A stretch of DNA of 39,131 bases from Betaproteobacteria bacterium. Its GTDB lineage: Bacteria > Pseudomonadota > Gammaproteobacteria > Burkholderiales > Burkholderiaceae_C. The number at the start of each line of letters is the position of its first letter. Position 1 is the stretch's first letter. The stretch is taken from NCBI GenBank assembly GCA_009921265.1, contig RFYV01000028.1, forward strand, positions 1 to 39,131. Reading direction: 5' to 3'. This document shows positions 28,297 through 36,473 of the stretch, one piece after another. Position numbers and translations under genes: made by a program. A model generated the notes under the pieces. It saw nothing but the letters and a program-made list of their open reading frames with translations. It was not told the DNA's origin and searched no databases.

Positions 28297-30426
28297 TTAA
28301 ATCAATCCTGCACCACGTGCCCATTGGTATTTAGCGCCCAAAACAGCTACAGGTATTTCAGTTGAATACGCATAAGCAGGAATGCCATGCTCGTACAAAT
28401 ATTGTGCGGCCTCTTCCACCTCGACGTCACCTGCTAAAGAAGCCACTATGGGTTTATCAATGCCTTTGGCGCGCATTTCATCGCGAGCTTCAACCATGAT
28501 TTTTGCAAACACCATCGGTGGTGTGACGATAGTGTGCCAATAGCCCAATATCAACGCATGAATGCGCGGATCGCTCAGACCCAAGAGGACGGTGTTTTTG
28601 TATGTGAGAGGTGGCTCACCTCCGGTGATGTCCACAGGATTACCAGCTGCACCAAACGGCGGAATGAATTTTCTAAATGCTGCGTCCAAATCGTCGGGCA
28701 TGGGCATCAATGTGAGTTTGTTGTCGACGCATGCATCCGACAACAAAACACCCGAGCCGCCAGCACCAGTAATGATGACGACGTTTTCACCCTTGGGCGT
28801 TGGCAAAATAGGAACGCCACGCGCAAAGTCGAGCATGTCACGCAAACTGCGCGCGCGAATCACGCCAATTTGTTGAAACACGTCTTCATAAATTTTGTCA
28901 TTGCCAGCCAATGCACCCGTGTGTGAACTTGCCGCTTTGGCTCCCGCTGATGTACGACCCGCTTTTAAAACGATCACTGGTTTTTTCTTAGACACGCGTC
29001 TGGCCACTTCTGCAAATGCGCGACCGTCTTTGAGATCTTCGCAATGCTGTGCAATCACTTTAGTGTTAGGGTCTTGTTCAAAGAAAATCAATAAATCATC
29101 TTCATCGATATCCGACTTGTTACCCAAGCCCACAATGGCAGACACACCCATTTTGGCTGAGCGACTAAAACCAATGATGGCCATACCGATGCCACCCGAT
29201 TGCGAAGAGAGTGCAACTGAGCCTTTGACATCGTAGGCTGTACAAAATGTGGCGCACAAATTGGCGGGTGTGTAGTAAAAGCCATAGATATTGGGGCCCA
29301 TCAATCGGATGTTGTACTTTTGTCCGATGGTGACCAACTCTTCTTGCATCTCCACATTGCCTGTCTCAGCAAAGCCCGATGGAATCAATACTGCACCTGC
29401 AATTTTTTTCTCACCGCATTCGACAAGCGCACCTGCAACAAATTTTGCAGGAATTGCAAAGACAGCTGTATCGATGTCTGCAGGAACGTCTTTGACGCTT
29501 TTGAATGCTTTGTGTCCCATGATTTCATCGGCACTGGGATGAATCGGATATATCTTTCCTTTGTAACCACCATTGATTAAATTTTTCATCACCGAGTTAC
29601 CGATCTTGCCGGCTTCATTGGAAGCACCAATGACTGCAACCGATTTGGGTTGCATGATGCGATTCATAGAAGCAAGTACTTGATCTTCAGGCGGACGATA
29701 ACGCGGCTTCTTAGCAGCAAAGTCAACAACGATGCGCACGTCAGCGGCAATCGCAGAATCTTTGCTGGCAAACACTGGGTTTAAATCGAGCTCTGCAATT
29801 TCTGGAAAGTCAGTGACCAAGTTGCTTACCTGAACAATCAAGTGTGCCAAGGCTTCGCGACTCACAGGATCACTGCCGCGCACGCCTTTGAGCATATCGG
29901 CGGCCTTGATGCCATCAAGCATTGATAGTGCATCTTCTTTGGTGGCAGGTGCCAATCGAAAGGTGATGTCTTTTAAAACTTCAACTAACACGCCGCCCAA
30001 ACCAAAGGCAACTAATTTTCCAAAACTCGGGTCGGTGACAGCGCCAATGATGACCTCTTGTCCACCTTTGATCATCTGTTGCACTTGCACCCCGATGATG
30101 CTGGCGTCGCTTTTGTATGCTTTAGCATTGGCAATGATTTTGTTGTAGGCGTCTGCGGCTTCTTGCGCAGACTTTACACCAACAATGACGCCACCTGCTT
30201 CTGTTTTGTGCAAAATATCAGGCGAGACAATTTTCATCACAACGGGATAACTCATTTGAGTGGCTATTTTTTGAGCATCTGCAGAACTGTTGACCACGCT
30301 TTCTTGTGGCACAGTGATGCCATACGCGTCGCAAACGAGTTTGCCCTCGGGGGCTGTTAAAGAATCTCTCCCAGATGCTTTAACTGCATCAAGAATTTTT
30401 CGAACCGTTGTCTTGTCGTTATTCAT
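28297..30426 (-). CDS. ADP-forming acyl-CoA synthetase (acetate-CoA ligase family)
   Basis: A 709-residue single-chain enzyme that interconverts acyl-CoA + ADP + Pi with acid + CoA + ATP. An ATP-grasp domain comes first (about 20-235; YPVVMKIVSPDILHKTEAGGV). The CoA-binding Rossmann domain follows (from about 258; SVAVIGASNEAGKIGN), then the ligase domains with the phospho-His at His502 (SSHTGALAG). This order, ATP-grasp at the N-terminus, is one of the known circular arrangements of the family. It sits 3 nt from the Fds genes and 45 nt from frc; AAAGGA precedes the ATG. Context suggests formate/formyl-CoA or oxalate as acyl partner. Confidence 0.88.
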   Translation of the reverse strand: MNNDKTTVRKILDAVKASGRDSLTAPEGKLVCDAYGITVPQESVVNSSADAQKIATQMSYPVVMKIVSPDILHKTEAGGVIVGVKSAQEAADAYNKIIANAKAYKSDASIIGVQVQQMIKGGQEVIIGAVTDPSFGKLVAFGLGGVLVEVLKDITFRLAPATKEDALSMLDGIKAADMLKGVRGSDPVSREALAHLIVQVSNLVTDFPEIAELDLNPVFASKDSAIAADVRIVVDFAAKKPRYRPPEDQVLASMNRIMQPKSVAVIGASNEAGKIGNSVMKNLINGGYKGKIYPIHPSADEIMGHKAFKSVKDVPADIDTAVFAIPAKFVAGALVECGEKKIAGAVLIPSGFAETGNVEMQEELVTIGQKYNIRLMGPNIYGFYYTPANLCATFCTAYDVKGSVALSSQSGGIGMAIIGFSRSAKMGVSAIVGLGNKSDIDEDDLLIFFEQDPNTKVIAQHCEDLKDGRAFAEVARRVSKKKPVIVLKAGRTSAGAKAASSHTGALAGNDKIYEDVFQQIGVIRARSLRDMLDFARGVPILPTPKGENVVIITGAGGSGVLLSDACVDNKLTLMPMPDDLDAAFRKFIPPFGAAGNPVDITGGEPPLTYKNTVLLGLSDPRIHALILGYWHTIVTPPMVFAKIMVEARDEMRAKGIDKPIVASLAGDVEVEEAAQYLYEHGIPAYAYSTEIPVAVLGAKYQWARGAGLI

Positions 30427-30471
30427 TTTTAATCCTTTGCATGTTCAAAAAAATAGCCACTCGAGTATTGC

Positions 30472-31719
30472 TTAAATCACTTTTTCTGCACGAAGTTCCT
30501 TGATCTGCTCTTCTTTGTAACCGAGTTGCTTCAACACTTCGTCGGTGTGTTCGCCAAGCAAAGGTGAACGCACCACATCGGTTGGACTGTCCGACATTTT
30601 GATCGGGTTACCCACTGTGAGGTATTTGCCTCGCTTGGGATGATCTACTTCCACCACGGTTCCAGTTTCGCGCAATGATGGTTCTTCTGCAATTTCTTTC
30701 ATCGACAAAATAGGTCCGCATGGAATGTCATACTTGTTGAGAATATCCATGGCCTCAAATTTAGTTTTGGTCATGGTCCACTGCTCGATGCGATCAAAAA
30801 TTGATTTGAGTCGTGGTAAACGCGCGGGTGGTGTTGCATAGTCGGGATGCGTGATCCAATCTTCTTGACCAATCACTTTACAAATCGCACCCCATACGGG
30901 TGCTTGCGTGATGAAGTAAATATATGCGTTGGGGTCGGTTTCCCATCCTTTGCATTTCAAAATCCACCCCGGTTGTCCGCCACCTGATGCATTGCCTGCG
31001 CGGGGTACGGCTTCACCAAATTTGGAATCAGGATATTGCGGATACTCTTTGAGCACTTGCGTGCGATCCAAACGTTGTTGATCGCGCAACTTAACGCGAC
31101 ACAAATTAATCACAGAGTCTTGCATGGCAGCCAATACTTTTTGACCACGACCTGTTGTATTGCGTTGATACAAAGCAGCAACGATGCCCAATGCCAAATG
31201 CAAACCAGTTCCGCTGTCGCCAATTTGTGCGCCTGTCACCAAGGGTGGGCCATCGTCAAATCCAGTGGTGGACGCTGCACCACCCGCACACTGCGCAACG
31301 TTTTCATACACCTTGCAATCTTCGTAGGGGCCTGGTCCAAAACCTTTGACAGACGCTACGATCATGCGCGGATTGAGTTCTTGAATACGCTTCCAAGTAA
31401 AGCCCATACGGTCTAACGCACCAGGCGCAAAATTTTCAACCAACACATCGCATGTTTTGATGAGCGTGTTGAGAATTTCTTTGCCTTTTGGATTTTTGGT
31501 GTCCAAGGTAATAGAACGCTTGTTGTGATTGAGCATTGTGAAGTACAAACTATCCACATCAGGAATATCTCTGAGTTGACCACGCGTGGCGTCGCCCTCT
31601 CCTGCTCTCTCGACCTTAATCACATCTGCGCCAAACCATGCAAGCAACTGCGTGCAAGTAGGACCCGATTGAACATGTGTAAAGTCCAAAATTCGAACTC
31701 CATCCAGTGCTTTACTCAT
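30472..31719 (-). CDS. frc: Formyl-CoA:oxalate CoA-transferase
   Basis: A 415-residue class III CoA-transferase that moves CoA from formyl-CoA to oxalate. The catalytic Asp is Asp168 ([15 protein letters not shown]), one position from Asp169 of the characterised Oxalobacter enzyme, and the mobile glycine loop GGGQ is at 246-249 ([10 protein letters not shown]). [35 protein letters not shown] start and [11 protein letters not shown] are typical. AAGGAG precedes ATG. It lies 27 nt after oxc, the enzyme that uses its product, which makes the assignment firm. Confidence 0.95.
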
Positions 31720-35461: not shown

Positions 35462-35477
35462 CTTGAATTACCTTGAA

Positions 35478-36473
35478 TTATTTAGCTAAAAAATTGGCCT
35501 CGCGCATCAAACGAAAATGCTCGACTTCTGCTTTGAGCAACCAGTCTTGAAAAGCTTGCCCCACCAAGAACGTATCCTTGAACGCGCCTGTTTCCATAAA
35601 ATCTTGCCACTCAGGTAGTGCTCTTACCTTTTTAAATACATCGATAAAGTAGTCCACTTGAGCTTGTGTCGCTTTAGGCGCCATAAAAATGCCACGAAGC
35701 ATCAAATATTCCACATCCAAGCCTTGCGATTTACAAGTCGGAATATCTTTCCAGGATTGTGTGGCTGTGATTTTTTTAGGGTAAGGCATGACCGCTGAAT
35801 CGAACACGCACAGGGGACGCAAAGTGTTGCCCTTCCAATGCGAGACAGCTTCATTGGGGTTGTTCACGGTTAAATCAATGTGCTTGCCTACCAATTGAAC
35901 AGCCACATCACCACCACCCTTAAAAGGAATGTAAGTCATTTTTTTGCCTGTGAATTTATCAATAGCCACCGTGATGATTTGATCTTCTTGCTTGGAACCT
36001 GTGCCACCCATTTTGAATTTGCCGTCATCGGCTTGCTTCAATGCTTTGGTGATGTCGGCAACGTTTTTGTAGGGTGCTTCTGCGTTCACCCACAACACAA
36101 ACTCGTCCAAGGCCAACATCGATACAGGTGTTAAATCTTTCCAATTGAAAGGCACGCCAGTGGCCAAGGGTGTGGTGAACAAACTTGATAAGGTGATGAT
36201 GATTTTGTGACCATCAGGGCGCGAGCCCTTCAGATCTAAAAATCCTTCAGCACCTGCACCACCGCCTTTGTTGATGACCACCAAAGGTTGTGGCATCAAT
36301 TTGTGTTTGGTAATCACACCTTGTAAAAAGCGTGCCATTTGATCAGCGCCTCCGCCCGTTCCTGCAGGTACGATGAGCTCCACGCTTTTGGTAGGACTCC
36401 AAGCTTGCGAATGAACCCCAAGGGGTAATAAAAATACGCCGAATATAAAGAGAGACAGTTTGTTAGTCCACAT
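35478..36473 (-). CDS. tctC: TTT periplasmic solute-binding protein TctC
   Basis: A 331-residue Bug-type binding protein. The signal peptide is MWTNKLSLFIFGVFLLPLGVHSQ. KSVELIVPAGTGGGADQMARFLQG and VVINKGGGAGAEGFLDLKG (described by position: about residues 29-80) are family marks. It is less like the classical Bug pattern than the protein at 3043 and belongs to a distinct TctC branch. AAGGTGA precedes the ATG. It is the first gene of the oxalate run, so it likely binds oxalate or a small dicarboxylate. Confidence 0.92.
   Translation of the reverse strand: MWTNKLSLFIFGVFLLPLGVHSQAWSPTKSVELIVPAGTGGGADQMARFLQGVITKHKLMPQPLVVINKGGGAGAEGFLDLKGSRPDGHKIIITLSSLFTTPLATGVPFNWKDLTPVSMLALDEFVLWVNAEAPYKNVADITKALKQADDGKFKMGGTGSKQEDQIITVAIDKFTGKKMTYIPFKGGGDVAVQLVGKHIDLTVNNPNEAVSHWKGNTLRPLCVFDSAVMPYPKKITATQSWKDIPTCKSQGLDVEYLMLRGIFMAPKATQAQVDYFIDVFKKVRALPEWQDFMETGAFKDTFLVGQAFQDWLLKAEVEHFRLMREANFLAK

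Follow-up and report, generated by a model that had tools for sequence, protein, structure and literature searches.

A predicted ADP-forming acyl-coenzyme A synthetase is linked to bacterial oxalate genes and alternates with a YfdW-type CoA-transferase

The operon described here lies in a 39,131-nt window (the whole stretch of DNA analyzed, contig RFYV01000028.1 of assembly GCA_009921265.1, from a Betaproteobacteria bacterium). It joins genes for oxalate breakdown to a gene for a single-chain acyl-coenzyme A (acyl-CoA) synthetase that is predicted to be ADP forming, called the ligase below. All genes of the operon are intact and lie on the minus strand. A periplasmic binding protein (tctC, 35478..36473), a small membrane subunit (tctB, 34967..35461), and the large membrane subunit of a tripartite tricarboxylate-type transporter (tctA, 33450..34970) are followed by oxc for oxalyl-CoA decarboxylase (31747..33453) and by frc (30472..31719), whose product is a class III CoA-transferase and belongs to subfamily FRC1. 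Both enzymes passed the respective family models, Oxc with 994 bits to TIGR03254 (cut-off, 739) and Frc with 737 bits to TIGR03253 (cut-off, 504). The ligase gene comes next (28297..30426; 709 amino acids and four Pfam domains), and the operon extends beyond position 28297. There, fdsGB (26584..28293), an FdsG-FdsB fusion that forms the diaphorase part of an NAD-dependent formate dehydrogenase, starts 3 nt after the ligase gene, and fdsA (23768..26587), for the molybdenum formate dehydrogenase large subunit, follows through a 4-nt ATGA overlap. The start of fdsA was taken as the ATG at 26587; the listed open reading frame begins at a TTG at 26668. As calculated from the coordinates, the spacing from tctC to fdsA is 16, -4, -4, 27, 45, 3, and -4 nt. 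The tight, one-directional order tctC-tctB-tctA-oxc-frc-synthetase-fds, which had been noticed when the DNA was read without database searches (the sequence-only reading), therefore stands, with no gap above 45 nt.

The four domains of the ligase (ATP-grasp_5, CoA_binding, Succ_CoA_lig, and Ligase_CoA_2) were all above the Pfam cut-off, which places the protein in the ACD superfamily. No AMP-binding domain was detected with Pfam at E values up to 0.001, so the protein is not of the AAE3 type. Its SHTG motif starts at residue 501, and His502 had thus been assigned correctly by the sequence-only reading. His502, His73, and Glu463 were invariant across an alignment of 31 clade members. His502 lines up with the SHTG motif in ACD1 and 8wzu, as does His73, part of the ATP-grasp HK[ST] motif, with the HKS of 4xyl_B, 1wr2, and 8wzu. 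We take His502 to be the phospho-His and His73 to be the ATP-grasp His. The closest full-length fold match was the 3-hydroxypropionyl-CoA synthetase of Nitrosopumilus (9y43; TMq 0.87, 31% identity), in which the ATP-grasp domain also comes first. In the structural model, residues 491 to 500, just before His502, formed the least confident ten-residue block (44), which would fit a mobile phospho-His loop. By family, the ligase thus appears to be intact and to belong to the single-chain ADP-forming acyl-CoA synthetases, with ADP as the predicted product. The scores against the equivalog models were below the cut-off for the acetate--CoA ligase alpha subunit (TIGR02717; 474 bits, cut-off 567), 3-hydroxypropionate--CoA ligase (NF045492; 465 bits, cut-off 1300), and 4-hydroxybutyrate--CoA ligase (NF045493; 562 bits, cut-off 1300).

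The frc-oxc-synthetase neighborhood proved to be conserved far beyond close relatives. Scanning named genomes gave 591 confirmed ligase loci; the best 80 of these were used for all counts on named loci given here, and 60 of the 80 had 6 kb or more on each side of the ligase gene (well-flanked loci). frc was found within 10 kb of the ligase gene in 74 of the 80 loci and in 58 of the 60 well-flanked ones, the two without it being L113 and L173. Both frc and a gene for Oxc or for an Oxc-like thiamine pyrophosphate (TPP) enzyme were present in 57/60 well-flanked loci, with L149 included through a short piece of the TPP gene only. Within 10 kb, the 80 loci contained Oxc in 49 cases, the Oxc-like TPP enzyme in 22 (including L135 and L149, with pieces of less than 300 nt only), OxlT/OFA transporters in 34, sucC in 26, and PanE-like reductases in 18 (17 of the 60 well-flanked loci). 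Frc below 50% identity and Oxc or TPP enzymes below 60% were left out of these counts; a 43% transferase in L159, for example, was not counted. sucCD genes lie beside the ligase gene in, for example, L036, L037, L041, L127, and L169. When a plasmid collection was searched without preselection, 16 records contained a relative at 63 to 81% identity, and the next match was at 39%. Ten of the 16 records were opened; Frc was encoded in the fetched stretch in nine, and the tenth, from Paracoccus, has oxlT and oxc instead. As controls, four distant synthetases (of 24 listed below 40% identity) had neither frc nor oxc within 6 kb. Thus, the linkage of the ligase to frc exceeds chance.

In a tree of 104 synthetases, 97, including that of the window, were on one side of a branch with a support of 93; the clade members were picked by BLAST score, and the outgroup branches are long. 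These 97 were 63 to 96% identical to the window ligase versus 27 to 36% for six other synthetases, and no local match to it was obtained for the seventh outgroup synthetase, which comes from a halophilic archaeon. In the 80 named loci, the ligases were 68 to 96% identical, and the titles of the records name Pseudomonadota, actinomycetes, Acidobacteria, Rokuibacteriota, and Binataceae. Oxalate-linked ligases therefore form a discrete clade that occurs across several bacterial phyla. The ligase resembles Korarchaeum ACD1 (4xyl), the Nitrosopumilus enzyme 9y43, and the 4-hydroxybutyryl-CoA synthetase 8wzu in domains, fold, phospho-His, and ATP-grasp His. It differs from these three in belonging to a separate clade, at about 30 to 42% identity, and in its link to Frc and Oxc.

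In 20 of the 80 named ligase loci, frc is accompanied by a conserved TPP enzyme instead of oxc, and two further loci contain pieces of it. Loci with this enzyme are L300 (genome G317), L083 (genome G032), L036, L077, L078, L148, L150, L151, L153, L174, and L176-L183. The enzyme is 25 to 28% identical to Oxc and is nearer to 2-hydroxyacyl-CoA lyases (275 versus 186 bits). In G317, its neighbors are frc2, frc1, oxlT, and panE, and the genome yielded no Oxc. The enzyme is possibly a second kind of oxalyl-CoA decarboxylase.

The Frc proteins themselves are of more than one type. In a tree of 159 Frc, FRC2 (with Escherichia coli YfdW) comprised 36 rows, FRC1 comprised 98, and a third set comprised 25. 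The Frc of the window belongs to the FRC1 clade, with an SGGGQ loop, rather than the GGGGQ of the YfdW type, and with AQIGDSG around the catalytic Asp. The two types show fixed differences in the catalytic loops (A166Q, L167I, N171G, and G246S, in YfdW numbering).

The occurrence of the ligase was then compared with that of the second Frc in two overlapping samples: a phylum sample of 398 genomes, 30 with Oxc (29 above the cut-off and G363, with the gene in pieces), and a sample of 150 genomes from the window's family, 28 with Oxc above the cut-off. In the phylum sample, the ligase was present in 11 genomes, all of which had Oxc (compared with 30/398 overall). One Frc above the cut-off was present in 11/11 ligase genomes, and at least two were present in 17 of the 19 Oxc genomes without the ligase (Fisher P = 1.4e-6 for ligase versus Frc number and 0.027 by genus, both values ignoring kinship). 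FRC2 was found in 14 of these 19 genomes (3 not classed and 2 without it) and in none of the six classed among the 11 ligase genomes. In the family sample, seven genomes had the ligase: five with Oxc above the cut-off, G104, and G032. G104 was left out of the comparison, its Oxc consisting of two pieces below the cut-off. Among the 28 Oxc genomes, a single Frc type was found in 5/5 with the ligase and two types in 20 of the 23 without it, the remaining three having cut contigs or incomplete frc genes. G101 was scored as having one Frc; it holds two FRC1 contig-end fragments, 96% identical over 289 shared nt, which represent two copies or else strain variants of a single gene. FRC2 was present in 22/23 ligase-free Oxc genomes (as contig-end fragments in G040 and G116; none was seen in G052) versus 0/5 with the ligase. 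Of the 79 Frc frames at the 80 named ligase loci, 77 fell outside FRC2 and 2 within it. Thus, the ligase and the YfdW-type FRC2 alternate among genomes with Oxc.

On a tree holding 47 of the Oxc proteins of the sampled genomes (9 rows with the ligase), the ligase required six changes, four of which were forced by supported branches. The four supported independent pairs, taken without G052, G116, and G040 (cut contigs), had the second Frc on the opposite side in 4/4 for most of 200 pairings and in 3/4 otherwise. In one family (f1), much of the remaining operon is shared, with frc2 upstream of frc1 and the ligase gene downstream of frc1. An occupation of the frc2 slot by the ligase was rejected on these gene orders, which put the two genes on opposite sides of frc1; the claim is therefore limited to alternation in genomes and does not extend to replacement in place.

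The sequence-only reading had proposed that the ligase could split formyl-CoA with a gain of ATP or run backward to prime the CoA cycle. These options were compared by linear programming, with the number of CoA esters altered only by the ligase (1 ATP), by hydrolysis, by reduction to glyoxylate, and by glyoxylate oxidation, and with no other CoA donor such as ACOCT. With oxalate as the source and a reversible ligase, the maximum net substrate-level ATP was 0, whether the ligase had the formyl activity only or both activities. A net substrate-level gain of ATP from oxalate is thus ruled out by stoichiometry, since, in a closed Frc/Oxc/ligase system, Frc uses one formyl-CoA per oxalyl-CoA. CoA esters are conserved in the cycle (neither the transfer by Frc nor the reaction of Oxc changes their number), so each formyl-CoA cleaved must be replaced at a cost of one ATP. 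With a leak of formyl-CoA, no steady state existed in the absence of the ligase; in its presence, the ATP cost equaled the leak. Glyoxylate was formed from oxalate only when the ligase was present. The drain of CoA esters on oxalate was balanced only by the ester-forming direction, which supports priming by the ligase, with formate or oxalate as the presumed substrate. When glyoxylate was the source, 1 ATP was obtained per glyoxylate. In this model, ATP is gained only with acyl-CoA from elsewhere (e.g., from glyoxylate) or through a half-reaction that is repaid elsewhere. Of the earlier interpretation, the Frc/Oxc-tied ADP-forming synthetase and the option of priming are retained, and the net ATP on oxalate is given up.

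On balance, we lean slightly toward the view that the ligase is a dedicated ADP-forming formate or oxalate CoA ligase, which primes and tops up the acyl-CoA pool and replaces FRC2. The activity on formate or oxalate is inferred from linkage and alternation only, the direction in the cell is also an inference, and the alternation would then amount to a functional replacement of FRC2. By analogy with characterized relatives, ATP would, through the ATP-grasp half, put a phosphoryl group on His502. Transfer of this group to formate or oxalate would give an acyl phosphate, from which CoA would take the acyl group. The formyl-CoA or oxalyl-CoA supplied in this way would start the Frc/Oxc cycle, in which Oxc would yield formyl-CoA and CO2, Frc would transfer CoA to a further oxalate, and Fds would oxidize formate to CO2 with formation of NADH. 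The ligase would also replace each CoA ester lost to formyl-CoA hydrolysis or to the reduction of oxalyl-CoA to glyoxylate, and it would take the functional place of the YfdW-type second transferase. In PMC3720670, half-lives in quenched mixtures of 1.9 h for formyl-CoA and 29 h for oxalyl-CoA are given, and priming by ACOCT is proposed for E. coli. According to PMC7486775, Cupriavidus necator no longer grew on oxalate when frc-oxc was deleted, and it needed the PanE2 homologue ApbA2 for normal growth on oxalate via the glycerate pathway.

Several points weigh against the priming and replacement reading. No NCBIfam equivalog names the substrate of the ligase. The window-type Frc is not the characterized YfdW type, so its role as a formyl-CoA:oxalate transferase comes from annotation. 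Oxc and one Frc occur without the ligase in G195 and G455 (the Frc of G455 scored 412 bits to the Oxalobacter PDB enzyme and 488 to YfdW), and in G032 the ligase is accompanied by Frc and the TPP enzyme, with no Oxc above the cut-off. Extra sucCD ligases, which could do the priming, occur in 23/60 well-flanked loci. Two Cupriavidus loci (L114 and L147) hold both genes, with oxc-frc2 beside a separate frc-ligase cluster. The sign test on independent pairs gave a median P of 0.125, and four pairs can never reach 0.05. Ten of the 11 ligase genomes of the phylum sample belong to one family. Paired yfdW homologues near oxc are taken as isozymes in PMC3720670, and on that view, there is nothing for the ligase to replace. 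In the window genome, no Gcl was above the cut-off, and the best PanE-like match was at 39%; a glyoxylate drain in this organism is therefore hypothetical.

Among the other explanations, one to which we give a low probability is that the ligase discharges formyl-CoA to formate and ATP as the counterpart of FRC2, and that FRC1 charges oxalate from succinyl- or acetyl-CoA remade with ATP (e.g., by the linked sucCD), with a net of 0 on oxalate and 1 ATP per turn from glyoxylate. The catalytic loops of FRC1, unlike those of FRC2 at the four positions given above, are consistent with this, as are the frequency of sucCD and PanE-like reductases near the ligase gene, the ATP yield of the model on glyoxylate, and the treatment of C. 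necator ApbA2 as reversible in PMC7486775. However, besides its four long synthetases, the window genome has one further Succ_CoA_lig match, a 300-amino-acid frame that is SucD-like by length, along with the poor PanE-like match and no Gcl above the cut-off; moreover, G195 has Oxc with an FRC1-type Frc alone, so FRC1 can probably use formyl-CoA. It also seems doubtful that the clade is a natural reversible ADP-forming formyl-CoA synthetase that would turn glyoxylate-derived oxalyl-CoA (PanE/ApbA-type, oxidative) into CO2, formate, and ATP and serve as a primer on oxalate, with an FRC1 activity distinct from that of YfdW. It is similarly unlikely that the ligase acts on another acid arising with oxalate (glyoxylate, glycolate, or acetate), with the linkage reflecting a shared regulon. 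This would agree with the broad substrate range of the superfamily, with the lack of a fitting equivalog model, and with the resemblance to 2-hydroxyacyl-CoA lyases of the TPP enzyme that replaces Oxc, but it leaves the alternation with FRC2 unexplained, and the gene set around the TPP enzyme in G317 points to oxalate in operons with that enzyme too. Finally, a purely historical alternation, in which horizontal transfer spread two types of operon without the ligase standing in for FRC2, is very improbable: the concentration in one family and the two Cupriavidus loci fit it, but in f1 much of the remaining operon is shared and the frc2 and ligase sites are separate, so loss and gain took place at different positions, and G101 (ligase) and G100 (frc2) are sister branches on the Oxc tree.

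With respect to the window organism, assimilation of oxalate was considered and rejected: in addition to the results for Gcl and PanE, no RuBisCO was found in the genome (assembly 95.8% complete). Within this assembly, the use of oxalate looks dissimilatory. The three other long synthetases of the genome are on contigs without Frc above the cut-off; one of these contigs (C220) has weak class III transferase matches. Elsewhere in the same genome (C58:47655-50521, locus L084 of G000), a second pair of genes converges, one for a class III CoA-transferase at 38% identity to Frc and the other for a TPP enzyme at 30% identity to Oxc. In the window but outside the oxalate unit, two regions encode other CoA-transferases: the genes at 6432-7780 look, by eye, like a pair for a 3-oxoacid CoA-transferase, and 15168-16376 holds another class III transferase gene. 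The TctCBA transporter heading the operon may be an oxalate importer; tctA with more than 70% identity was near oxc in 17 of the 28 family loci fetched, and other loci have OxlT. In relatives, a CRP/FNR-like regulator gene on the opposite strand adjoins oxc (L047, 8319-8996; L050, 7607-8221; L061, 11034-11642), called from a weak match for L047 and by likeness for L050 and L061. The 4-nt overlap of tctA and oxc in the window leaves no space there for such a gene.

Compared with known systems, the family and the fold of the ligase are not new. Searches of the open-access literature turned up neither this clade of oxalate-linked ligases nor its spread or alternation with a YfdW-type Frc, nor any ADP-forming ligase in oxalate catabolism; a prior mention elsewhere is possible. 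Clade proteins are currently annotated as "acetate--CoA ligase family protein." The Bradyrhizobium homologue may be bll3155, a term absent from the open-access papers searched. Plant AAE3, an oxalyl-CoA synthetase, is AMP forming and has an AMP-binding domain, which the ligase lacks. If oxalate is the substrate of the ligase, the ATP-driven activation of oxalate to its CoA ester would be common to both. YfdE/ACOCT, which is also found near oxc, is, unlike the ligase, a class III CoA-transferase that works without ATP. A YfdE orthologue was considered as the primer, but the best identity in the 23 genomes searched was 42%, which is superfamily background and uninformative on function. The YfdW-type FRC2, a neighbor of oxc and frc1 in loci that lack the ligase, belongs to an unrelated protein family. 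The occurrence of oxc genes near two yfdW homologues is already in print (PMC3720670).

If formate is used, the ligase would be a natural formyl-CoA synthetase. For the assimilation of formate, engineers use acetyl-CoA synthetases with low formate turnover, the kcat never exceeding 12 per second (PMC8511477). Under the present assignment, the clade proteins would be named specifically rather than at the level of the acetate--CoA ligase family. To our knowledge, the first CoA charging of oxalate and the replacement of formyl-CoA are settled only where ACOCT has been assayed. A conserved ligase that swaps with a second CoA-transferase bears on how oxalate users charge oxalate.

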